DNA of 64,000 bases from Roseinatronobacter alkalisoli (GTDB lineage Bacteria > Pseudomonadota > Alphaproteobacteria > Rhodobacterales > Rhodobacteraceae): NCBI RefSeq assembly GCF_028745735.1, contig NZ_JAQZSM010000009.1, forward strand, positions 62,001-126,000, read 5' to 3'. Below, piece after piece: positions 1-60,389 of this stretch (position 1 is the first letter of the stretch; each line of letters opens with the position of its first letter). A model generated the notes under the pieces. It searched no databases, had not been told where the DNA came from, and saw only the letters and a program-made list of their open reading frames with translations. Position numbers and translations under genes: made by a program.

Positions 1-362
1 TGCACGAAATCCACAGCCGCCGCCACAAATGCCGCGACACCAGATTTCATGTCACACGCGCCACGCCCCCAGATACGGCCCGCATCAATATCCCCGCCAA
101 AGGGTGCGCGGGTCCAGTCATCGGGGTTGCCAAGCGGCACCACATCGGTATGGCCATTAAACCCCAAGCTGCGCGCATGCCCCCGCGCGCCCCAACGCGC
201 GAACAGGTTGGGCGTGCCGTTGCGGTCAACACGGATGCAGGTGAACCCCGCCCCTTCCAGCACGGATTGTAGCAATTGCAGCGCACCGCCTTCTTCCGGG
301 GTGACAGACGGGCAGCGGATCAGGCTTTGCGTCAGCGCAACGGGGCACAGCGTATCAGTCAT
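1..362 (-). CDS. dapE: Succinyl-diaminopimelate desuccinylase, N-terminal part (runs off the window)
   Basis: A zinc-dependent M20 peptidase-family enzyme that hydrolyses N-succinyl-LL-diaminopimelate to LL-DAP and succinate, in the lysine and peptidoglycan precursor pathway in the cytoplasm. The first 120 residues read without interruption from the ATG at 362. They include the conserved [13 protein letters not shown] segment, with metal-ligand His and catalytic Asp, the [10 protein letters not shown] stretch, and the [11 protein letters not shown] motif. All three are diagnostic of DapE. The ATG overlaps the end of the upstream small gene by 8 bases, so the two are probably translationally coupled. 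The C-terminal half lies before base 1. Confidence 0.95.
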
Positions 363-717
363 TTTCATCCGCATCACTGAACCATGTTTTCTGCGCAACA
401 ATCACGGCGTTTTCGGCCAATGCGCGCGCCATCAGGTCACGTTCTTCGGCGGGCACTTCGTCACCCGCAGCAAGCCGTTCATCCAATGTACCATAGCTGG
501 TGACATCCAGGGGGCGCAAATCAGCCTGTTTCAGCACGGCCACGGTTTCGCGCACGGCCTCCCCCTCATCCACGCCGGTCGCATAGACCAGCAGCCCCGC
601 GCCAGTCGCCCCTTTGGGCAAGCTGTCACCAGGCATATGCCCCAGTTCAACCAGAAGCGTATACACCTGTTGCGGGCGTTTGGGCTTTTCGGGGGCCGGG
701 GCTGGTGTGTCGGGCAT
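355..717 (-). CDS. Conserved small protein of unknown function upstream of dapE
   Basis: A 120-residue soluble protein with a Pro/Ala/Lys-rich N-terminus and no signal peptide or membrane segment. I do not recognise the family. The C-terminal half is acidic ([19 protein letters not shown]) and ends DADEND. The ATG at 717 was chosen because AGGA lies about 9 bases before it. An in-frame GTG at 744 has no ribosome site at suitable spacing. The stop overlaps the dapE start by 8 bases, so it is probably co-transcribed with dapE. No function is assigned. Confidence 0.75.
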
Positions 718-852
718 GGGCGGGGTTCCTTTTGCTCTTTTCACTGTCAGGAATTAGCCCGCAGGGCAAGCCCCCGATGCGCGCAGGGGGCTGGTCCCGG
801 TGGCCGGGTTTCGGTATGGAAAGGGCTGAAACAGTCAAGCGGAGTGCCAGCC

Positions 853-1944
853 ATGCCCCATACGATCGCGGAAATTGCCCAGGCATTGGGACTGCGTGCC
901 GAAGGGGCGCTTGATCTGGCCATCACCCATGCCGCTGAACCTGCACAGGCGGGGCGTGATGCGCTGGCCATGGCAATGGACCCAAAATATGCCGCAGGGC
1001 TGGCGCAGGGGCAGGCACAGGCCGCCATCCTGTGGGACGGCGCGGACTGGCAGGCGCTGGGACTGAAAGCTGCGGTCTTTGCCCCGCGCCCCCGCTGGGC
1101 CATGGCGGGCATTTCCGAATTGCTGGATCCGGGCTATGATTTCGGCGCAGGCATTCACCCGCAATCCTTTATTCACCCGAGCGCACGAGTGGCCGACGGG
1201 GCTTGCATCGGCCCCTTCACCAGCATCGGCGCGCGCGCGGTCATTGGCCCGAATGCCCGCATTGCCCCGAATGTCACCGTGGCCGAAGATGTAGTGATCG
1301 GTGCGGATGTCATTTTGCATGCGGGCGCGCGCATCGGCGCGCGTGTGCGCATCGGGGACCGTTTCATCGGGCAGCCCAATTGCGTTGTGGGCGGTTGCGG
1401 GTTCAGTTTTGTCACCCCCGAACCATCCGGCGCGGAAGATGTGCGTGCCAGCCTGTCGGGGGAACGGCAGGTGCGCGCACAGAAATGGCACCGCATCCAG
1501 TCTCTGGGGGCCGTGCGCATTGGCGATGATGTGGAACTGGGCGCAAATTCATCCATCGACCGGGGCACCATCCGCGACACTGTTATCGGGTCCGGCACCA
1601 AGATCGATTCGGTCTGTCAGATCGGCCATAATGTTCAGATGGGCGAAGACTGCATGATGTGCGGCATGGCGGGCGTTGCGGGGTCCGCGCGCATTGGCAA
1701 CCGTGTCCTGCTGGCGGGCAAGGTTGCCGTGAATGACAATATCTTCGTGGGCGATGATGCGATTGTCGGCGGGGCCAGCCGGGTGTTTACCAATGTCCCC
1801 GCCGGGCGCGCGGTTCTGGGTGATCCGGCCACCAAGCTGGAAACGCAGCTGGAAATCCGCAAGATCATCCGCCGCCTGCCGCGACTTGTGGCAAATGTTG
1901 CCAAGTTGCAGGACGCCGTTTTCGGCCCGGATCGCAAGGGGTAA
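853..1944 (+). CDS. lpxD: UDP-3-O-acylglucosamine N-acyltransferase
   Basis: Third step of lipid A synthesis: transfers a 3-hydroxyacyl chain from acyl-ACP to the 2-amino group of UDP-3-O-acylglucosamine in the cytoplasm. The 363 residues match the family length. Residues 1 to about 100 form the uridine-binding domain ([12 protein letters not shown], then [14 protein letters not shown]). From about residue 105 come left-handed beta-helix hexapeptide repeats ([20 protein letters not shown] and on). The catalytic His is in QIGHNVQMG, near residue 259. The C-terminus is helical. The frame stays open far upstream, but the ATG at 853 follows GGAG by 8 bases and begins the conserved domain. It stands alone, away from lpxA and fabZ. 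Confidence 0.95.
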
Positions 1945-1990: not shown

Positions 1991-2166
1991 CCCAAAGGCG
2001 CGGAGCCAAGGCCGCAGGCTGGCCCGCGCCACCGGTGGGCCGTCCCGCAGCCTACCCGTTCCGCTGGCGTCATGCCAAGCGTTTGAGCTTAGGATCATGC
2101 CGCCTGCATAAAGTGAATTCCTCCGACGCCGGACCGGCAGCCCCCGGCCCACCGCTGGCGCGGGCT
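1991..2166 (-). repeat. Dispersed 176-bp inverted-arm repeat, copy 1 (reverse orientation)
   Basis: Full-length copy of the repeat also present at 22322, 42735 and 59065. Read on the minus strand it opens with GCCCGCGCCAGCGGTGGGCC and CTGCCGGTCC. The core carries TTCACTTTATGCAGGCGGCA. It closes with a near-complementary second arm (GACGGCCCACCGGTGGCGCG), then a tail ending CTCCGCGCCTTTGGG. It fills most of the 357-base gap between the convergent ends of lpxD and ask. No coding potential is evident in it. Confidence 0.85.
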
Positions 2167-2248
2167 ATATTCATTCACCACTGCCCCCCTCAGCCCTGAA
2201 CCGGCCAGCACTTGCGGTTGCCATCCGATACGAACGTGTCCATAAATC

Positions 2249-2301: not shown

Positions 2302-3741
2302 TCAGGCGGCCTTGCGCGGCGCGGCTTTCGCGGGTTCGTTTTCTGCTTCGGTCACCATGGCATGGTGCAACACCTTGATCGCCTCATTCTTGCTGTCGCG
2401 CGGCAACAGGAACTGCACTTCGACACGGCGCAGGCCCTGCTGGGCGGCCAATGCCTTGATACCGGCATCTTCCAGCGCCATCAGACCGCGCGCCAGCACC
2501 GAAATCTCGCGCAGGTCAGACCCGATGACTGACACCATGGCCAGCGGACGCGCTGTCACTTCGGCATTGGGATAGGTTTTCAGGATATCGCTTTCAACAC
2601 GCCGGATGGCCTTCAGCGACCCGCTCAGATAATGGGTGATGGTATTGGCATTGGAATGTTTCGACACGATCCAGATATTATGCCGTGCCAGCGCCTCCAG
2701 AATGCAGGCGTCATAGCCTTTGACACCCACCATATCGGGTTCATGCACTTCAAACGCATGCACACCAAGTCCGGTGACCATTTCCACCCGCCCGGCACTT
2801 CCGCCATCGGGACCGATCAGCGTGCCCGGATCTTCGGGTTCAAACGCGTGTTTCACGCGCAAGGGCACATCCGCGCGGCGCAGCACGCGCGCCGCATTCG
2901 GGTGAATAGCTTCCATCCCCAGATTGGACAACTGATCGGCCACGTCATAGCTGGTGCGACCAATCTTGCGGGTGTTTTCTTCGCCGACGATTTTCGGATC
3001 CGCCGATGACAGGTGGAATTCCTTGTGGATGATCGCTTCTGCCGCGCCGGTCTGGGCGGCCAGATGCGCGAATACCACTTCAGAATAGCCGCGATCATAT
3101 TCGCGCATCAGCCCTTCCGCGCAATGCGCGTAACCCGTGACAATCGGCAGTTCAGACGCAAAATCAATGCCTTCCATCGCATTGTTCAGGCGATCTGACA
3201 GGGAAGGATTGCTGTCATCACGCCAGCCTGACAGATCGACGAAGCGCGCGTTCACGCCTTGGCGTTGCAGCAGCAGTGCCGTGACAAAGGCGGAGTGCGC
3301 CTCTCCCATGCCGGACAGCAATTCGCGCACGGTCTGCATTTGCTGATCGATGCGGAAATGGCCATACGACCCCAGACGCTGCAAATCCAGCAGACAGGCA
3401 CGCGCCCCTTCGATCCGGTCGCGCACGAAAGCATCGGCGCGGTCGCGGTCGCCGTCATGATCCAGGATATCACCGTGAATTTCGCACATGCGCGCGGCAG
3501 TATCGCGCAACGCATCGCCCCAGCCCGCGCCACTGTCATCATTGGCAAAACGGGCATAGACACCGGGCGATCCGGTCTTTTTATGTTCCAGCAGCATATT
3601 GGTGATGCCGCCAAATGCCGACACGACAAAAACGCGGTTATAGATTGCGCCCTGATCGCGGTTGCCGACATATAACGTGTCCAGCAATTCGCGGGCGCGG
3701 CTCATACATGTGCCGCCGATTTTCTCAACTGTGTGGGTCAT
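2302..3741 (-). CDS. ask: Aspartate kinase of the ectoine cluster (Ask_Ect type)
   Basis: Phosphorylates L-aspartate, feeding aspartate semialdehyde to EctB. This is the specialised aspartokinase linked to ectoine clusters. The start MTHTVEKIGGTCM is the signature opening of that subgroup (the usual K-x-GGT phosphate-binding segment). Later motifs include VSAFGGITNMLLEH, the substrate-binding HLSSADPKIVGEENTRKIG and a C-terminal pair of ACT-like regions (VKGYDACILEALARHNI; MVSVIGSDLREI). The 479 residues fit the subgroup. The ATG at 3741 has no clear Shine-Dalgarno sequence and lies just after a hairpin behind ectC, so translation may depend on upstream ribosomes. Last gene of ectABC-ask. Confidence 0.93.
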   Translation of the reverse strand: MTHTVEKIGGTCMSRARELLDTLYVGNRDQGAIYNRVFVVSAFGGITNMLLEHKKTGSPGVYARFANDDSGAGWGDALRDTAARMCEIHGDILDHDGDRDRADAFVRDRIEGARACLLDLQRLGSYGHFRIDQQMQTVRELLSGMGEAHSAFVTALLLQRQGVNARFVDLSGWRDDSNPSLSDRLNNAMEGIDFASELPIVTGYAHCAEGLMREYDRGYSEVVFAHLAAQTGAAEAIIHKEFHLSSADPKIVGEENTRKIGRTSYDVADQLSNLGMEAIHPNAARVLRRADVPLRVKHAFEPEDPGTLIGPDGGSAGRVEMVTGLGVHAFEVHEPDMVGVKGYDACILEALARHNIWIVSKHSNANTITHYLSGSLKAIRRVESDILKTYPNAEVTARPLAMVSVIGSDLREISVLARGLMALEDAGIKALAAQQGLRRVEVQFLLPRDSKNEAIKVLHHAMVTEAENEPAKAAPRKAA

Positions 3742-21688: not shown

Positions 21689-22243
21689 ATGCCCGCATAC
21701 TGGACGATAACACCAAAGGCCCCGGGCACTGCGCCCGGGGCCTTTGCGTTGACCAGCGCGGCCGGGGCCGAATACCGGCTGGACCTGCGGCCGAATATTT
21801 CCATGGGAAACCGTGGCTTTGTCCGCGTTATCAGCATCAGCGCGTTGTTCCTTGCGCTGCCCCTGATCGCTGTTCTGGGAACGCCGGTGCTATGGGGGCT
21901 TTTGCCGTTTATGGGGCTGGTGCTCTGGGCGCTGTGGTATGCGCTGATGCGCAACCGCAGCGAACGCGAAACCCTGTATGAAACCCTGCGCCTGACCCGC
22001 GATGCGTTTGAACTGACCCATGTAACGCCCCACCGCCCCGCGCAGCACTGGCAGGCCAACCCGTTCTGGGTACGGATTTCGTTGCAGGAAAAGGGCGGGC
22101 CGGTGGAAAACTATCTGACTCTGCGCGAGGGCGGCGGCGGCGGCGGTGGCGGGCGCGAGGTCGAACTCGGCCGGTTCCTCAGCCCCGACGAACGCGCAAC
22201 GCTGCATGACGATCTGTCGCGCGCGCTACGCCATCTGCGTTGA
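21689..22243 (+). CDS. DUF2244 membrane protein
   Basis: A 184-residue protein with two adjacent membrane helices near residues 50-90 (ISISALFLALPLIAVLGTPVLWGLLPFMGLVLWALW), a soluble domain with HWQANPFWVRISLQEKGGPVENYLTL, and REVELGRFLSPDERATL. These are the hallmarks of DUF2244, often found near respiratory oxidase genes; its role is unknown. A run of eight glycines near residue 152 comes from a GGC microsatellite. Codons 9-19 form a terminator-grade hairpin. The ATG at 21689 gives the N-terminal MPAYWTITP expected from the family. GGAG is 14 bases upstream, rather far. Confidence 0.85.
   Translation: MPAYWTITPKAPGTAPGAFALTSAAGAEYRLDLRPNISMGNRGFVRVISISALFLALPLIAVLGTPVLWGLLPFMGLVLWALWYALMRNRSERETLYETLRLTRDAFELTHVTPHRPAQHWQANPFWVRISLQEKGGPVENYLTLREGGGGGGGGREVELGRFLSPDERATLHDDLSRALRHLR
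21715..21745 (+). terminator. Terminator-grade hairpin inside the start of the DUF2244 gene
   Basis: Perfect 13-bp arms AAAGGCCCCGGGC / GCCCGGGGCCTTT with a 5-base loop, ending in TTTGCGTT. It starts 50 bases after the ctaD stop, where a ctaD terminator is expected, but 26 bases inside the next coding frame. It may attenuate the distal gene or act as a translation-coupled switch. Confidence 0.65.
22130..22153 (+). repeat. GGC microsatellite in the DUF2244 gene
   Basis: Five to six GGC units, with one GGT interruption, encode a polyglycine run. Slippage of whole units would vary Gly number without shifting the frame. Confidence 0.8.
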
Positions 22244-22321
22244 AGGCACTGTACTGATAAGGGGGAATGGGGCTGTCTTGGGGTGGTTCTTTCAGCATGA
22301 AATGGCCGATGTCGCGCACGA

Positions 22322-22498
22322 AGCCCGCGCTATCGGTGGGCCGGGGTCTGCCGGTCCCACGTGGAAGGGGTTCACTTTATGCAGGCGTCATAATCCTAAG
22401 CTCCAAGGCTTGAATCAGCACCAACGGAACCGGCAGGCCGCGGGACGGCCCACCGGTGGCGCGGGCCAGGCTTCGCCCTTGGCTCCGCGCCTTTGGGA
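22322..22498 (+). repeat. Dispersed 176-bp inverted-arm repeat, copy 2
   Basis: Full-length copy of about 177 bases in the convergent gap between DUF2244 and the amidase gene. The left arm is GCCCGCGC, CGGTGGGCCG and CTGCCGGTCC. The right arm, its imperfect complement, is GGAACCGGCAGGCC, GGCCCACCGG and GGCGCGGGCC. The core holds TTCACTTTATGCAGGCG. The tail is CTTGGCTCCGCGCCTTTGGG. Confidence 0.88.
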
Positions 22499-22529
22499 CA
22501 TACCATTCTCTGATATGCAAAAGCAGCCC

Positions 22530-23192
22530 CTACCGCCGCGCGGCACTGAACCCGTCTGCCACGGCTGACGCGCGCATCCGGTCCTGCGCGCATTCCGGTC
22601 CCTGCCCCCAAGGCCGGAAGCGCAGACGAAATGCCTGCAGGCGCTTGTCCGATGCCGCATCAGGGTAGCCGATCGCATCAAGACTGGGGCCAAGCGGGCG
22701 GTCCGTCCCCTGCCCTTCGGGCCACAATGCCAACCCCTGAAGCGCCAGACGCCGCCAGTCGAAACGCGCGCCGGGGTCTTCCTTGCGGTCGGGGGCCATG
22801 TCGGAATGGGCAATCACATCGACAGCGGCGATTTGCCAGCGCGCCATTATCTGACCCAGCAAGCTTTCCAGCGCAGTCATTTGCGGGTTCGGGAACGGCA
22901 TATCCCCGCGATTGGCCAGTTCAATCCCGATGGAGCGCGAATTGACATCGCCCTTGCCGCACCATAGTCCCGCCCCAGCATGCCAGGCACGCTGATCCTC
23001 TGCCACCATCTGCACGACATCGCCCTGCGGCGATATCAGGTAATGGGCCGAAACCTGAAATTCCGGGTCGCACAGGCGCTGAAGGGCGGCCGCAGTGCTG
23101 TGCATGCCGGTATAATGCAGGACAATCAGTTCAGGCCGCGCGCCATTGCGCCGCGGCCCGTAATTCGACGATGGGTGCCAGATTGCCCCCAT
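22530..23192 (-). CDS. amiD: N-acetylmuramoyl-L-alanine amidase, AmiD/Amidase_2 type
   Basis: Zinc amidase cutting the lactyl-amide bond between MurNAc and the stem peptide, used in peptidoglycan recycling. Zinc ligands are visible in IVLHYTGMHS (His) and IAHSDMAPDRKEDPGARFDW (His and Asp-Pro segment), with VSAHYLISPQGDVVQMVAEDQRAWHAG between. The 220 residues show no clear signal peptide, so location is uncertain: homologues may be cytoplasmic or lipid-anchored. It starts 6 bases after the lipoprotein gene, so the two are probably one operon. Confidence 0.88.
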   Translation of the reverse strand: MGAIWHPSSNYGPRRNGARPELIVLHYTGMHSTAAALQRLCDPEFQVSAHYLISPQGDVVQMVAEDQRAWHAGAGLWCGKGDVNSRSIGIELANRGDMPFPNPQMTALESLLGQIMARWQIAAVDVIAHSDMAPDRKEDPGARFDWRRLALQGLALWPEGQGTDRPLGPSLDAIGYPDAASDKRLQAFRLRFRPWGQGPECAQDRMRASAVADGFSAARR

Positions 23193-35116: not shown

Positions 35117-35714
35117 ACGTGGATGCGAATCTCGTGATACCTGCGCTGTGGGTTGCATGCCCTTACCCGAAGGGGCCTCGCCCAGCCTGCCCGCGTCCTG
35201 CCCAATGGTCCACCACGCCCTGCACAGACATATTGCCCTTGTCTGGAAAGCGCGACACCGGTTTCAAGCCACGCGCGTCATGCGCCGTACCGCGCGAGTA
35301 GCGCATGTTGCCAGACAAAGGGGGAGCCGTTTTCTGCTTCTCGAACATCCGAAATCAAGAGGTCAGAATGCGGCGCGCTTGTTTTATGCTGATCCCGGCT
35401 TTTGTGGGAGTAGAGAGCCAGCGCGCCACGCCATTTTAGCGCGCACTGGCGGTGGTCGGATCGTCACGGGCTTGGTCGTGAAGAACCGTTTCAGGGTGTG
35501 ATCAGCTATTATCTTCGCCTGAGGCCTGAACGGGTACAAGACGATGCATGACGCCCTCTGCACCCAGCATAGGACAAGCAGGTTGCGCAATAAACGGCCG
35601 ACAACTCGTTGCGGGGCGCGCGAATGTGAATGCGCACGCGAAGTGATCCGGCATCATGATCATGTCTGCCGGAACCGCAAGCGCGCCTGACGCGGATGAC
35701 AGCCATGCACAACG
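35117..35714. other. Gene-free region after flgD with decayed sequence
   Basis: About 600 bases at a convergent junction without a credible intact gene. An imperfect inverted repeat (CCCTTGTCTGG at 35236 and CCAGACAAAGGG at 35311, 64 bases apart) could be the ends of a small mobile element or an RNA stem. On the minus strand, 35502-35765 gives an 87-codon frame containing ADMIMMPDHF, faintly like the MPDH motif of REP-associated tyrosine transposases, but the second His is lost. Probably gene debris. Confidence 0.5.
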
Positions 35715-35782
35715 CCGCACCATCGGCGACCCGGCGTCTGCCGGTCCCATGTCGGATATGTTCACGTTACGCGGCCTCCATA
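35715..35782 (+). repeat. Dispersed repeat, copy 5 (degenerate left end)
   Basis: CATCGGCGACCCGGCGTCTG, CCGGTCCCATG and TTCACGTTACGCGGCCTCCA follow the left arm and core start of the intact copies with many mismatches. The right half is missing. It lies in the flgD/betA convergent gap. Confidence 0.6.
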
Positions 35783-35887
35783 CCCCGGCATCCGGGCGCG
35801 GGCCTGTTCCGCGTTATTCAATCCTCCGGGGGGCTACGAAAGGCCAGCCCCCGCAAACGCGATGTCCAAACCCGGATCGATCGCGCG

Positions 35888-42683: not shown

Positions 42684-42734
42684 CGCGGCGCGCGCTTTTG
42701 TGGCCTGAAGGGGACATTGATGCTTGGATCAAAC

Positions 42735-42861
42735 CCCCGCAATCGGCGGGCCGGGGTCTGCCGGTCCGGCGTTTGAGAAGTTCACTTTATGCAGGCGGCA
42801 CAATCCTGAGTTCATAAGCTTGGCGTGACATCAACGAAACCGGCAGGCCGCGGGACGGCCC
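42735..42861 (+). repeat. Dispersed repeat, copy 3 (3' end cut at a stop codon)
   Basis: The left arm CCGGGGTCTGCCGGTCCGGC, core TTCACTTTATGCAGGCGGCA and start of the right arm CCGGCAGGCCGCGGGACGGC are well conserved. It then stops exactly where the convergent transglycosylase stop codon begins, losing about 45 bases of right arm and tail. The gap is 178 bases. Confidence 0.85.
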
Positions 42862-47653: not shown

Positions 47654-48104
47654 TATTTCCCATCTGCTGAACACGGCCCGCGCCAGCATGTTCCCGCATC
47701 TATTGGCGGCGTGGGCGTTTAGTGGTGTCTGTGATGCCCATGGCCGCTGATTGCGTGCGGGCCCCACGGGGACTGGGCGCATCCCGCCATAATGCGGGCA
47801 TTCGCGCAACCAAAGGCGCGGAGCAAGGACGCAAACCCGCCGCGCAATCAGCTAGCCGTCCAGCGAGCCACCGGTAGCGCGGGCTTTAACGTCTGTTTCC
47901 CACCGCCAGACGGGCCATTCCATCCTGCACCAATCATGGCGCAGGATGCCCCCCTTTCGCAAAACCGTCGAACAATTGCATTTGTTTAGCCTAATTCTTG
48001 CCAGATTTGGGGACAATCCTGGGACAGTGTCATGGTCATTCCGTATCAGGGATGATTCCGCACATTGTATCGAACACGTATCAGTTAGTATTGGGGTTGG
48101 CCAA
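47654..48104. other. Gene-free gap inside the tad locus
   Basis: 451 bases between same-strand genes. It contains a short repeat relic (next entry), a GCGGGCCCC/GGGGAC-rich stretch, and an AT-richer segment before tadZ that probably holds a promoter. No coding frame is credible, so tadZ onward may be a separate transcription unit. Confidence 0.55.
47810..47885 (-). repeat. Dispersed repeat, copy 6 (internally deleted)
   Basis: CCAAAGGCGCGGAGCAAGG at the left matches the tail of copy 1, and CCACCGGTAGCGCGGGCT at the right matches its outer end. The 100 bases between are missing. Having only the two ends is typical of deletion derivatives of short inverted-repeat elements. Confidence 0.6.
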
Positions 48105-56120: not shown

Positions 56121-56289
56121 GCATCTGGTGGTTCAGATCAGATCGCAATATCCCGTTTACGGGTGGTTCCGGGCATAAAGCGGATGTTGGCGCGCGCATG
56201 TAGCCCGCGCTTTTGGAATCCCCAAACACCCGCTTCATGCTGGTTTCTACCCAATCTTGCATTCCTCTGATGTCGGAATACTGCGGCGA

Positions 56290-56790
56290 TTACCCGATTT
56301 CTGCCGCGCGCGCTTCCAGCACATCAAACGGCACCCCCGGCTCCGCCTTGGCGCAGCGGATCACAAGCGATGTCTTGACCGTTGCGACATTCTCTGCGGC
56401 CAGCAGATCCTCTGTCAGGAAACTCTGAAAGCTTGACAGATCAGGGGCCACGCATTTCAGGATGAAGTCTATCTCGCCATTCAGCATATGGCATTCGCGC
56501 ACCAGCGGCCAATCCCGGCAGCGCTGTTCGAAACGCGACAGGTCGGCCTCTGCCTGGCTGTTCAGACCGACCATTGCAAATACCTGCACCTCGAATCCCA
56601 GATCACGCGCATTGACCTGCGCATGATAGCCGCGAATATATCCGGCTTCTTCCAATGTGCGCACGCGCCGCAAACATGGCGGCGCCGAAATACCGACTCG
56701 TTTGGCCAGTTCAACATTCGTCATGCGACCATCTGCCTGCAATTCGGCCAGTATCTTGCGATCGATGGGATCAAGCTTGCTGCCTGACAT
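56290..56790 (-). CDS. lrp: Lrp/AsnC-family regulator
   Basis: A 166-residue feast/famine regulator. Helix-turn-helix: LDPIDRKILAELQADGRMTNVELAKRVGISAPPCLRRVRTLEEAGYIRGY (about 6-55). The RAM ligand domain follows (VQVFAMVGLNSQAEADLSRFEQRC; VRECHMLNGEIDFILKCVAPDL). The ATG at 56790 has AAGGAGT 8 bases ahead. Divergent from trxB, a common pairing in Rhodobacterales. Confidence 0.93.
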   Translation of the reverse strand: MSGSKLDPIDRKILAELQADGRMTNVELAKRVGISAPPCLRRVRTLEEAGYIRGYHAQVNARDLGFEVQVFAMVGLNSQAEADLSRFEQRCRDWPLVRECHMLNGEIDFILKCVAPDLSSFQSFLTEDLLAAENVATVKTSLVIRCAKAEPGVPFDVLEARAAEIG

Positions 56791-56937
56791 GCGGACACTC
56801 CTTGAGATTTGCGACTTATGTATGCCGAAGCGCCCGCGCGCGCAATAATATTTCAAAGTTGCGCAATAAATTGTTCCGCCCCACGCGGCAAGGAATGCCT
56901 CTTGTGCTGCCCGCCCAAGTGCCTACATTGCGCGTGA

Positions 56938-57903
<966 letters not shown>

Positions 57904-57913
57904 TGCCATAGAA

Positions 57914-57947
57914 GGGGCCTGCGTGGCTGCGCGCGCATGCAGGCCCC
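57914..57947 (+). terminator. Hairpin behind trxB
   Basis: GGGGCCTGC / GCAGGCCCC with a 16-base loop, 11 bases after the trxB stop, no T run. It could be a Rho-assisted terminator. Confidence 0.5.
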
Positions 57948-58154
57948 ACTGATGCATGTCACCCTCGCATCTTCGCATGACGAAAACCGGTTCCCACGTC
58001 CGGGAACTGCACCCGCCCTGCTTCATCTTGCCAGAACATTCAAAACCATGCAGTGCCAGCGCACACCGCCCGATAAAATGACGGCCAGACGCAGTTGCGT
58101 CATCTGCCCTTCCCCCTACTGGCACATTACAATTCCCAGCCCTATATTGGCGGC

Positions 58155-59030
58155 ATGAAGAAAATTCTTGCCGCGCTCTGTCTGTTCCCTGCCCCCGCTT
58201 TGGCCGATTGTGTGGTGTTGCTGCATGGGTTGGCGCGCAGTGAATATTCCATGGCGGTCATGGAAGAAGCGCTGGAATTGCATGGTTATCAGACTGTCAA
58301 TCATGGCTATCCGTCCACCGCAGCCCCCATCAAGGATCTGCTGCGCCATGTGGGACTGGCCGTGCAGGAATGCAATACGGCGGGGCCGGTGCATTTTGTT
58401 ACCCATTCGATGGGTGGCATACTGGCAAGGGCCTGGCTGGACCGCACGCGCCCGGCGCAAATGGGACGGGTCGTGATGCTGGCCCCGCCCAATCATGGGT
58501 CGGAACTGGTGGATTACTTTTCCGATATCGAAGCATTTTCCTGGTTGAACGGCCCCGCAGGGCTGGAACTTGGCACGCATGAAGACGCGACACCGCAAAT
58601 GCTGCCGACAATGCCGGATTATGACCTGGGCATCATCGCGGGGGATCTTTCGCTGAACCCGCTGCTATCGTCGCTGATCGAAGGCGCGGATGATGGCAAG
58701 GTCTCAGTCGAAAGCACACGGCTGGACGGGATGCGCGACCATATCGTCATATCCGCCACCCATACATTCATCATGAACAACCCACTGGTCATTGCCCATA
58801 CACTGGAATTTCTGGAAGACGGGCAGTTCGACCATGACCTGACCCTGGCGGATGCGCTGCGCTATCTGGCCACGCCCACGCCATTTGGCGTCCTGACAGA
58901 ACAAGGCGCATTTCAGTCCATGCTGGAACGCAATCTGTTGCAGCATATACCCGATTCCGACACGCTAAGTCGCTGGGTCAAACCCGATATCCTGCGTAAC
59001 CTGACCACACCGCGCGACATCGAAAACTGA
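58155..59030 (+). CDS. Secreted alpha/beta hydrolase (lipase/esterase-like)
   Basis: A 291-residue protein with signal peptide [14 protein letters not shown]. The fold core begins [16 protein letters not shown], an oxyanion-like HG loop; the nucleophile elbow is [26 protein letters not shown] follows, and a late His may be in [13 protein letters not shown]. The C-terminal about 60 residues ([20 protein letters not shown] to the end) extend beyond the usual catalytic domain. No ribosome site is clear at the ATG (58155). The substrate is unknown. Confidence 0.82.
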
Positions 59031-59064
59031 CACGGCGCGCGCAGGGGGATGAAACGGGTGTTGC

Positions 59065-59240
59065 ACCGCACCATCGGTGGGCCGAGGTCTGCCGGTCCGG
59101 CGTTATAGGAGTTCACTTTATCCATGTCCATGCGGCCTCACTTCTGCATTCAAGGCTTGGCATGACGCTGGCGAAACCGGCAGGCCGCGGGACGACCCGC
59201 CGATGGCGCGGCGACCTGCGGCCTTTGTTCCGCGCCTTGG
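59065..59240 (+). repeat. Dispersed 176-bp inverted-arm repeat, copy 4
   Basis: Full-length, more diverged in the core (TTCACTTTATCCATGTCCAT) but with good arms: CATCGGTGGGCC, CTGCCGGTCCGGCGTTATAG on the left; GAAACCGGCAGGCCGCGGGA, GCGCGGCGACCTGCGGCC on the right. It fills the lipase/purK convergent gap. Confidence 0.85.
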
Positions 59241-59312
59241 CAGTCCTGATACCCGTTCTCCGGCCTGAAACCACCCTCAGACAGAATGGGTAGGGTCACT
59301 CTCACCCGGCAT

Positions 59313-60389
59313 CTACCCCTTCGGGCGCTGAATATGGTTCACATGGCCCATTTTCCGCCCCGCGCGACACTCTGGCTTGCCATAAAGATGCAGCGCCACA
59401 TCGCGGGCTTTCAGCAATTCCGGCAGGCGGTCCATGTCATCGCCGATCAGGTTTTCCATCACCACATCGGCATAACGCCCACCATCGCCCAAAGGCAGGC
59501 CCGTGACCGCGCGGATATGCTGTTCAAACTGGTCCACCGCGCAGCCATCCTGTGTCCAGTGGCCGGAATTATGCACGCGCGGGGCAATTTCATTCACCAC
59601 CAGCCCCTGCGCCGTGACGAACAGTTCCACACCCAGTACGCCGACATAATCCAGCGCATTCAGTATTTTCGCGGCAATCAACACAGCATCGCTGCGCTGC
59701 GCGGGGCTTAGCCGCGCAGGCACACGGGTTTCGCGCAAAATCCCGTCACGGTGCAGGTTCTCGCCCGGATCAAACGCCGCTACATCGCCATTCAGCCCAC
59801 GCGCGGCAATCACCGACACTTCATGGCTGAACGTGACAAACCCTTCCAGAATGGCCTCTGCGCCTTGCATCACGGCCAGTGCGCCTGCCGCGTCATCCGC
59901 GCTTTGCAGTCGCGCCTGCCCCTTGCCGTCATAGCCCAGACGGCGGGTTTTCAGAATCGCAGGTGCGCCAACCTTCGCCAGTGCCGCGTCCAGTTCCGCA
60001 GCGGTCGCGACGGGGGCATAAGGCGCAGTTGGCAGCCCCAGTTCGCGCAGGAAATCCTTTTCACTCAGCCGGTCCTGTGACACGGCCAGCGCCTGCCTAC
60101 CCGGCCGAATGGGACGCAGCGGTTCCAGCAGATCCAGCGTGGCCGTGGGGATGTTTTCAAACTCAAAGGTAATGACATCGACACCGGCGGCGAAGTTCTG
60201 CAAGGCGGTCGCATCATCCCAGGGTGCAGTGACCACCTTTTGCGCGACATGGCCCGCTGGTGGCAGGGGCGCAGGGTCATAGATGTGGCAGCGATAGCCC
60301 AGCCGCGCCGCCGCCATCGACAGCATGCGCCCCAACTGCCCGCCACCCAGAATGCCGATCACGCTGCCTGCTTCAAGCGCGTCAGTCAT
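59313..60389 (-). CDS. purK: N5-carboxyaminoimidazole ribonucleotide synthase
   Basis: ATP-grasp enzyme making N5-CAIR from AIR and bicarbonate in purine synthesis. The 358 residues begin [50 protein letters not shown]-grasp [16 protein letters not shown] and the C-terminal [10 protein letters not shown] are visible. The ATG at 60389 follows GGAGGAA and overlaps purE by 8 bases. Confidence 0.96.

Follow-up and report, generated by a model that had tools for sequence, protein, structure and literature searches.

Bacterial repeats that lie between genes are commonly interpreted as transposons or else as regulatory hairpins. In a stretch of 64,000 nucleotides from Roseinatronobacter alkalisoli (hereafter the window), a unit of about 176 bp recurs between genes, which raises the question of what this element is and how its copies come to occupy their sites. 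The initial annotation of the window listed four copies and two relics, described arms that would fold the whole unit into one long hairpin, and offered three guesses: a MITE, a large REP/BIME-like unit or a structured RNA element. The window is part of the R. alkalisoli genome, G000, a draft of 130 contigs and 4.84 Mb, and corresponds to C120:62001-126000. The comparison of orthologous neighbouring gene pairs drew on three genomes: G000, the metagenome bin G012, and G020, which is the only near-complete one of the three.

All four claimed copies, at 1991, 22322, 42735 and 59065, are present, the one at 1991 on the minus strand. As had been stated, three are complete, covering the full length of a 177-nt model of the conserved centre, and each lies between convergent genes: copy 1 (1991-2169, minus strand) between 1-1944 (+) and 2302-3741 (-), copy 2 (22319-22497, plus strand) between 21689-22243 (+) and 22530-23192 (-), and copy 4 (59060-59242, plus strand) between 58095-59030 (+) and 59313-60389 (-). 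Copy 4 also keeps a remnant of its left outer arm (GATGAAACGGGTGTTG) at 59048-59063 on the plus strand. Copy 3, again between convergent genes, consists of a left outer arm (GGCCTGAAGGGGACATTG) at 42702-42719 and a centre truncated at its right end (42748-42861, model positions 20-133), both on the plus strand. The arms, core and tail are common to the four copies, although the words quoted for them are not all exact in every copy. The site of copy 2 is also filled in G020 and G012 in the same orientation, whereas the orthologous site of copy 3 holds a copy of opposite orientation in both genomes, and that of copy 4 is opposite in G012. The two relics exist as well. One is a left fragment of 80 nt (35711-35792, plus strand, 35 bits), whose orthologous gene pair is without the element in G020 and G012; the other is a short form of about 80 nt in which the middle of the hairpin is missing (47809-47888, minus strand), at a site without the element in G020, G012, G021, G007 and G028. 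The tally was one trace short: at about 56162-56243 lies a collapsed scar, with diverged outer arms and a centre shrunk to one GCCCGCGC, and the orthologous convergent site of G012 holds a full copy. At window positions of about 35117-35887, the orthologous gap of G012 is longer by well over 1 kb; the additional DNA may be an insertion sequence, whose remnants the G000 gap may keep beside the relic at 35711-35792.

A covariance model was built, as the initial annotation had proposed, from an alignment of 30 copies. It gave at least 140 matches in G000 at E ≤ 0.001 among the best 150 of 4510 first-look candidates that were scored, two of the 140 entries being a single element read on both strands. 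Most matches (120/140) are 160 nt or longer, with 5/140 of 100-159 nt and 15/140 of 60-99 nt. The proposed genome-wide search with copy 2 likewise revealed far more copies, well in excess of what chance would give, at least 41 places by BLAST at E ≤ 2e-38 with 40 of 161 candidates scored. Against Rfam, the window at gathering score gave two tRNAs only, and 22250-22560 around copy 2 gave no match at E ≤ 5. Neither outcome that the annotation had set against its own claim, a search returning only these copies or a match to a known Rfam family, was therefore obtained. At G000 C98:10932-11347, two full copies lie in tandem in the same orientation, 59 nt apart.

The repeat is abundant in part of the genus Roseinatronobacter: the covariance model found it in 25 of 37 genomes and not in the other 12, and a genus scan placed G000, G012 and G020 as many-copy genomes with at least 74 places each. 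Across the bacterial family, with one genome per genus and at most the 18 best candidates scored in each, 39/149 genomes including G000 match the model, that is 38/148 other genera, and the matches are mostly 172-182 nt long. By BLAST, 0/24 genomes of other families match. No match was found in phage records, and plasmid records gave one, NZ_CP121115.1 of Roseinatronobacter sp. S2, with the repeat at five places. An exact-pattern scan of named genomes returned one metagenome bin (JAFIEO01) with three contigs. A second palindromic dispersed repeat (AGAGCATGTTGCTCAAAAGTGGGAACCGGTTTTGAGC...) was seen at about 1446000-1446200 of contig C1 in G020 (L244/L245) and in other gaps of G020 and G012; its core matches 10 times in 900 kb of G020, 4 times in 478 kb of G012, once in 749 kb of G000 and not in the window.

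The 176-bp unit stood as a conserved centre, but its ends proved to be internal, since outer arms extend the unit to about 220 bp. The flanks beyond the 177-nt centre carry these further, dyad arms, TGGCCTGAAG/CTTCAGGCCA or a TTTTGC/GCAAAA variant. The left side of a type A centre reads GCCCGCGCC-A-n-CGGTGGGCCG-GGGTCTGCCGGTCC, followed by a core of about 70 nt with TTCACTTTATGCAGGC, and the right side reads GGAACCGGCAGGCC-GCGGGA-CGGCCCACCG-GTGGCGCGG, followed by a small hairpin closed by CCGCGCC. Pairing of the centre arms, which are about 30 bp long, leaves a loop in which the motif CTTTAT is conserved (27/32 alignment rows by eye). The GCGCGG strand of this main centre hairpin also belongs to a second, small hairpin. 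In other genera and in part of Roseinatronobacter the inner arms are GGTGCGGCGATCC/AAATCGCCGTGCC, both sides having changed together. Three G000 copies, one of them at C1:384492, have a composite tail made of the small hairpin, then CGCCGCGCCACTGGCGCGACGGTCCC, then a second copy of the tail.

The stem was derived from, and its covariation measured in, the same MAFFT alignment of 32 copies from 28 genomes. In it 98.9% of cells pair, a percentage that leans upward because the copies were found with a covariance model rewarding pairing, and sliding the partners by 1-3 columns lowers pairing to 38-46%. Changes on both sides were found in 13 of the 30 pairs against 7.3 in shuffles, none of 500 shuffles being as high, and these are stronger evidence for the hairpin than the percentage paired. 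The initial annotation was right that the repeat forms a hairpin. The near-constant length, the covarying stem across genera and the conserved loop argue for a selected structure and for a protein that recognises it.

With the two 10-nt outer arms kept to within one mismatch and 170-270 nt apart, a scan found 18 well-kept TGGCCTGAAG/CTTCAGGCCA pairs in G000, 8 in G020 and 8 in G012, all 34 enclosing a full centre; most copies keep their arms less well. Measured between TGGCC and GGCCA, these 34 units span 219-275 bp with a mode of 220; 30 of them are 219-233 nt long and the remaining four, all from G000, 263-275. Both 10-nt outer arms lying 10-110 nt apart with no centre occurred nowhere in G000 and once each in G020 and G012, in neither case scar-like. 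Scars with diverged arms and no centre do occur, the observed ones having arms more diverged than, or lying outside, the set covered by that scan. Short forms were considered as ancestors of the family and rejected, as about 10 of the 14 short or partial matches examined by eye instead have the look of internal deletions and show more than one junction.

The copies are found at the 3' ends of genes, most of all in the gaps of convergent pairs. Pair occupancy was counted in stretches not chosen copy by copy, namely contig C1 and the window contig of G000 (524 kb) and the syntenic 500 kb of G020, with genes called by a simple codon-usage caller written for this analysis. In G000, 16/68 convergent, 0/68 divergent and 5/341 tandem gene pairs are occupied, and in G020 17/68, 0/68 and 5/339, respectively, resulting in Fisher p values for convergent pairs versus the rest of 6e-11 and 1e-11. 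Among the 82 classed G000 copies (of 140; those with enough flank, mostly chosen by score), 59 are convergent, 21 tandem and 2 divergent, and a single one overlaps a called gene, in agreement with the claim that the unit is non-coding. In the relatives, 49 of 51 copies picked by model score could be classed, two lying at contig ends, and comprise 25 convergent, 22 tandem and 2 divergent cases. Nineteen of the 21 tandem copies of G000 are nearer the 3' end of the upstream gene, and 8 of the 21 are in the sense of the genes.

This location at transcript ends, together with the compensatory changes and the conserved loop across genera, would suit a structured 3'-UTR RNA, the hairpin acting as a terminator, decay barrier or processing site in transcripts and any recombination being incidental. 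The commonest wobble states of the stem are G.U on the plus strand of the element (189 G.U versus 42 A.C cells in 174 copies). Such a bias, which would point to RNA or to a single DNA strand, had stood out in the first 30 copies, but in the 174 the pair positions are even, at 24 versus 23. For ERIC an action on transcripts is reported, and for YPAL a possible one (PMC2229807). However, the tandem copies have no sense bias, and orientation differs at shared sites. A crude scan found U-tract hairpins in 19/33 element-bearing versus 26/73 empty convergent gaps long enough to scan, and in gene pairs 56 and 172 they lie beyond the element. The RNA reading, which is compatible with an exchange of contents between sites, is possible but rather unlikely. 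The narrower idea of an intrinsic terminator is not supported, because the tail is mostly CTTTGGG, only the said minority of tandem copies is in sense, and separate U-tract hairpins remain at many sites.

Comparison of the close relatives G012 and G020 revealed a different kind of behaviour. Their median protein identity is 97.9% (289 pairs) and their median identity at fourfold sites 90% (250 gene pairs). Sixteen of the 17 compared sites are common to both, a share biased upwards because the presence of copies was the reason for choosing most stretches of the two genomes; when contig C89 is considered in full, 3/4 sites are shared. The one unshared site is a deletion between GCCCGCGC repeats. 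At the 16 shared sites, orientation is the same in 12 and opposite in 4. Core identity reaches 0.97 or more at only 3 of the 15 shared sites with full copies, whereas at the other 12 it averages 0.72 (0.62-0.85), the mean over all cross-genome pairs being 0.712. Three of the 15 comparable copies are orthologous in sequence, and the other 12 differ like random paralogues.

The swapped copies could in part be traced to donors. The copy at the own site is the best match only at the three orthologous sites of the 15. Of the 12 swapped G012 copies, three are near-identical (0.99-1.00) to the copy at some other G020 site, against 0.62-0.76 to the one at their own site. The remaining nine reach at best 0.76-0.93, with no near-identical donor among the copies compared, which were 38 from G012 and 53 from G020 of at least 74 in each. 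By eye, the likeness of the two flanks extends as far as the outer arms at seven of the 12 swapped sites and as far as the centre at one; at the other four, at least one flank is diverged throughout. The two outer-arm types of a unit are unlinked in G012 (8 AA, 9 AB, 3 BA, 4 BB; p=1; 24 of 37 copies typed on both sides), partly linked in G020 (10 AA, 3 AB, 7 BA, 14 BB; p=0.03; 34 of 53) and mostly matched in G000 (16 AA among the 19 typed on both sides, of 83). Copy diversity is 0.829 within and 0.826 between the species pools of G012 and G020, and this equality indicates shuffling and not a visible homogenisation. In the window region 56121-59312 (L200-L205), the three genes that lie between two element sites run the other way round in G020 compared with G012 and G000, and in G012 opposed copies bound the inverted segment.

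The argument for exchange is carried by three genomes and 15 comparable sites. The comparison of the two close relatives shows that the contents of shared sites have been replaced by other members of the family, in either orientation, faster than the flanking coding DNA changes, which suggests that copies swap contents and direction faster than they change sites. A chimeric G012 assembly is possible in principle and would need two false joins at each of the 12 sites; the label k141 in the G012 record is presumably an assembly word of 141 bases.

At the larger distance of G000 from G020 (fourfold identity 60%), sites are not stable and turn over too. A copy is shared at 3/10 sites in stretches not chosen copy by copy and at 20 of all 36 syntenic pairs that hold a copy in either genome, 16 being unshared. 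The shared copies carry no orthologue signal (core 0.66 versus 0.65), and orientation is the same at 10 and opposite at 9 of the 19 single shared sites, with five and five between G000 and G012.

Based on these comparisons, we propose that the element is probably a family of long palindromic REP/BIME-like intergenic repeats that are reshuffled by ectopic recombination. Ectopic homologous recombination (gene conversion) between copies would replace the content of a site. As the arms are long and self-complementary, donors could pair in either direction, so that the content would be swapped and the orientation randomised while the flanks are kept. Short forms and scars would arise by deletion inside the hairpin, and genes could be inverted when opposed copies cross over; over longer times sites would also be gained and lost. 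The sites would lie mostly where insertion spares promoters, and the selection on hairpin and loop may reflect recognition by a putative host factor. Ectopic recombination within self-complementary arms would explain the swapping, the random direction, the mixed arms, the scars and the inversion together.

The same turnover might instead be that of a MITE, a transposon that is not autonomous and depends on a putative transposase acting in trans, with swaps produced by precise excision and re-insertion at a preferred target between convergent gene ends. In keeping with a MITE, the unit is short and non-coding and has long terminal inverted repeats, which are paired and covary. Deletion derivatives with the same junction are found at several sites, and G000 and G020 differ in presence and absence, at the 16/36 unshared pairs overall and at 7/10 in the stretches not chosen copy by copy. 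Convergent-gene bias is also reported for repeats thought to be mobile, such as SPRITE (PMC3049150). Whole-unit transposition, however, predicts new sites and fixed ends, and it fits poorly with the mixed arms and varied breakpoints at shared sites: not one new insertion was found at the 17 G012/G020 sites while the content changed at 12/15, the limits of the exchanged parts are not constant, and single units combine arms of different types. The only transposase type searched for, Y1, was not found in G000, G012, G007, G019 or G021. No target duplication was readable, as five sites empty in G000 and filled in G020 are too diverged to read the ends, and the G012 differences examined for one are deletions or scars. 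A MITE is therefore an unlikely explanation of the exchanges.

Exchange of cassettes at fixed outer-arm sites by a putative site-specific recombinase would account for shared sites with changed content and direction, and some boundaries do fall at TGGCC/GGCCA. Such exchange predicts fixed ends, but the boundaries differ between sites and a single unit can combine a left arm of one type with a right arm of the other, making it improbable.

How does the repeat compare with known families? De Gregorio et al. (2006) reportedly placed YPAL, the Yersinia palindromic sequence or RU-2, just after stop codons. The repeat here has a placement of this type, 3' of stop codons and near dyad or terminator sequences. 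YPAL further resembles it in being intergenic, about 168 bp long and not A+T rich, with internal inverted repeats, and in having targets that span or adjoin dyad symmetry, which recalls the dyad outer arms (PMC2229807). The likeness is by description, and there are differences: YPAL belongs to other bacteria and is reported to show target duplications of 3-26 bp and recent filled and empty sites, and the passages describing it in PMC2229807 do not mention swapping of content or flipping at shared sites. SPRITE and RUP of pneumococcus are likewise enriched between convergent genes, SPRITE most strongly (PMC3049150), but both come from another phylum, and IS630-Spn1 is believed to mobilise RUP at TA sites (PMC2229807); a partner of this kind did not turn up in the transposase search here, which covered Y1. 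ERIC is also intergenic and forms one long stem-loop (PMC2267715), but it is 127 bp long with TA termini, and by inspection neither holds here. The Caulobacter CIR is an intergenic repeat of an alphaproteobacterium as well, alike by its description in PMC2229807.

REP, BIME and REPIN elements have a similar habit, being intergenic, palindromic, present in high copy and frequent between convergent genes according to PMC1525189. Although these properties would suit classical REP/REPIN spread by a RAYT (Y1) transposase, such spread is hardly credible and mobilisation of RAYT or IS200 type was rejected, because REPs are described as 20-40 bp long with GTAG or CGTC tags (PMC3733652) whereas the unit here is about 220 bp with no such end tag, and because REPINs are linked to RAYT (PMC3116915) whereas the Y1 model PF01797 passes its cut-off in 2/37 genus genomes, neither of them many-copy, with no match in G000, G012, G007, G019 or G021 and one just below the cut-off in G020. 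The observation made in the initial annotation is confirmed and its interpretation partly supported: of its three guesses, the large REP/BIME-like unit comes nearest, while the MITE is not established. In the literature search, to which subscription papers were mostly external, no description of the repeat or of the swapping pattern was found. The convergent bias and the hairpins are already known for REP and the pneumococcal repeats, and the new point is the dynamics, that is, the persistence of sites with turnover of their content.

What could trigger ectopic recombination? One version, which we hold to be quite doubtful, is a conversion drive, in which the hairpin of a copy would itself break or stall chromosomal replication and force repair from another copy. 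Such a process could maintain a chromosome-wide network whose sites pass hairpins to one another and flip them, and which persists across the family with little transposition, and the CTTTAT loop might be the mark read by the responsible protein. In E. coli, a 246-bp interrupted palindrome causes inverted duplications of the chromosome in the absence of SbcCD and RecA (PMC3315005). The canonical SbcD model (TIGR00619) passed its cut-off in G028 only, 1 of the 37 genus genomes, and not in G000, G012 or G020, so this nuclease, the obvious one for hairpins, is not proven to be the trigger, and canonical SbcCD was rejected in that role. Weaker TIGR00619 matches in 25 other genus genomes are mostly to the N-terminal part of an SbcD/YhaO-like phosphoesterase.

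A copy lies just upstream of the gene for this SbcD/YhaO-like protein in G000, G020, G021 and G019 (G000 C1:384492-384664; G020 C1:2740647-2740822; G021 C1:2664739-2664914; L317:2749-2926). The G000 genes upstream of it are, as we read their proteins, presumably a sirtuin-like deacylase and UvrC. A model search of 20 stretches from 20 genomes, together with those of G000 and G020, added a copy in G010 and, close by in G007, a degenerate one; the remaining 16 of the 20 genomes have none. The copy-rich G012 has a different neighbour and only a scar at this gene. The gene was rejected as a partner of the repeat, given the lack of a copy in 16/20 genomes and the mere scar in G012. The gap is filled in several species of both sequence subfamilies, so the site may be old while the sequence follows the genome.

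Between two close relatives, the sites of this repeat persist while their contents turn over, which separates the spread of such a family from its maintenance. Higgins et al. reportedly raised gene conversion for REP in 1988, and the suggestion that palindromic repeats evolve in this way becomes directly testable in pairs of genomes. For the chromosomes that carry them, the copies offer recombination points for local gene inversion.
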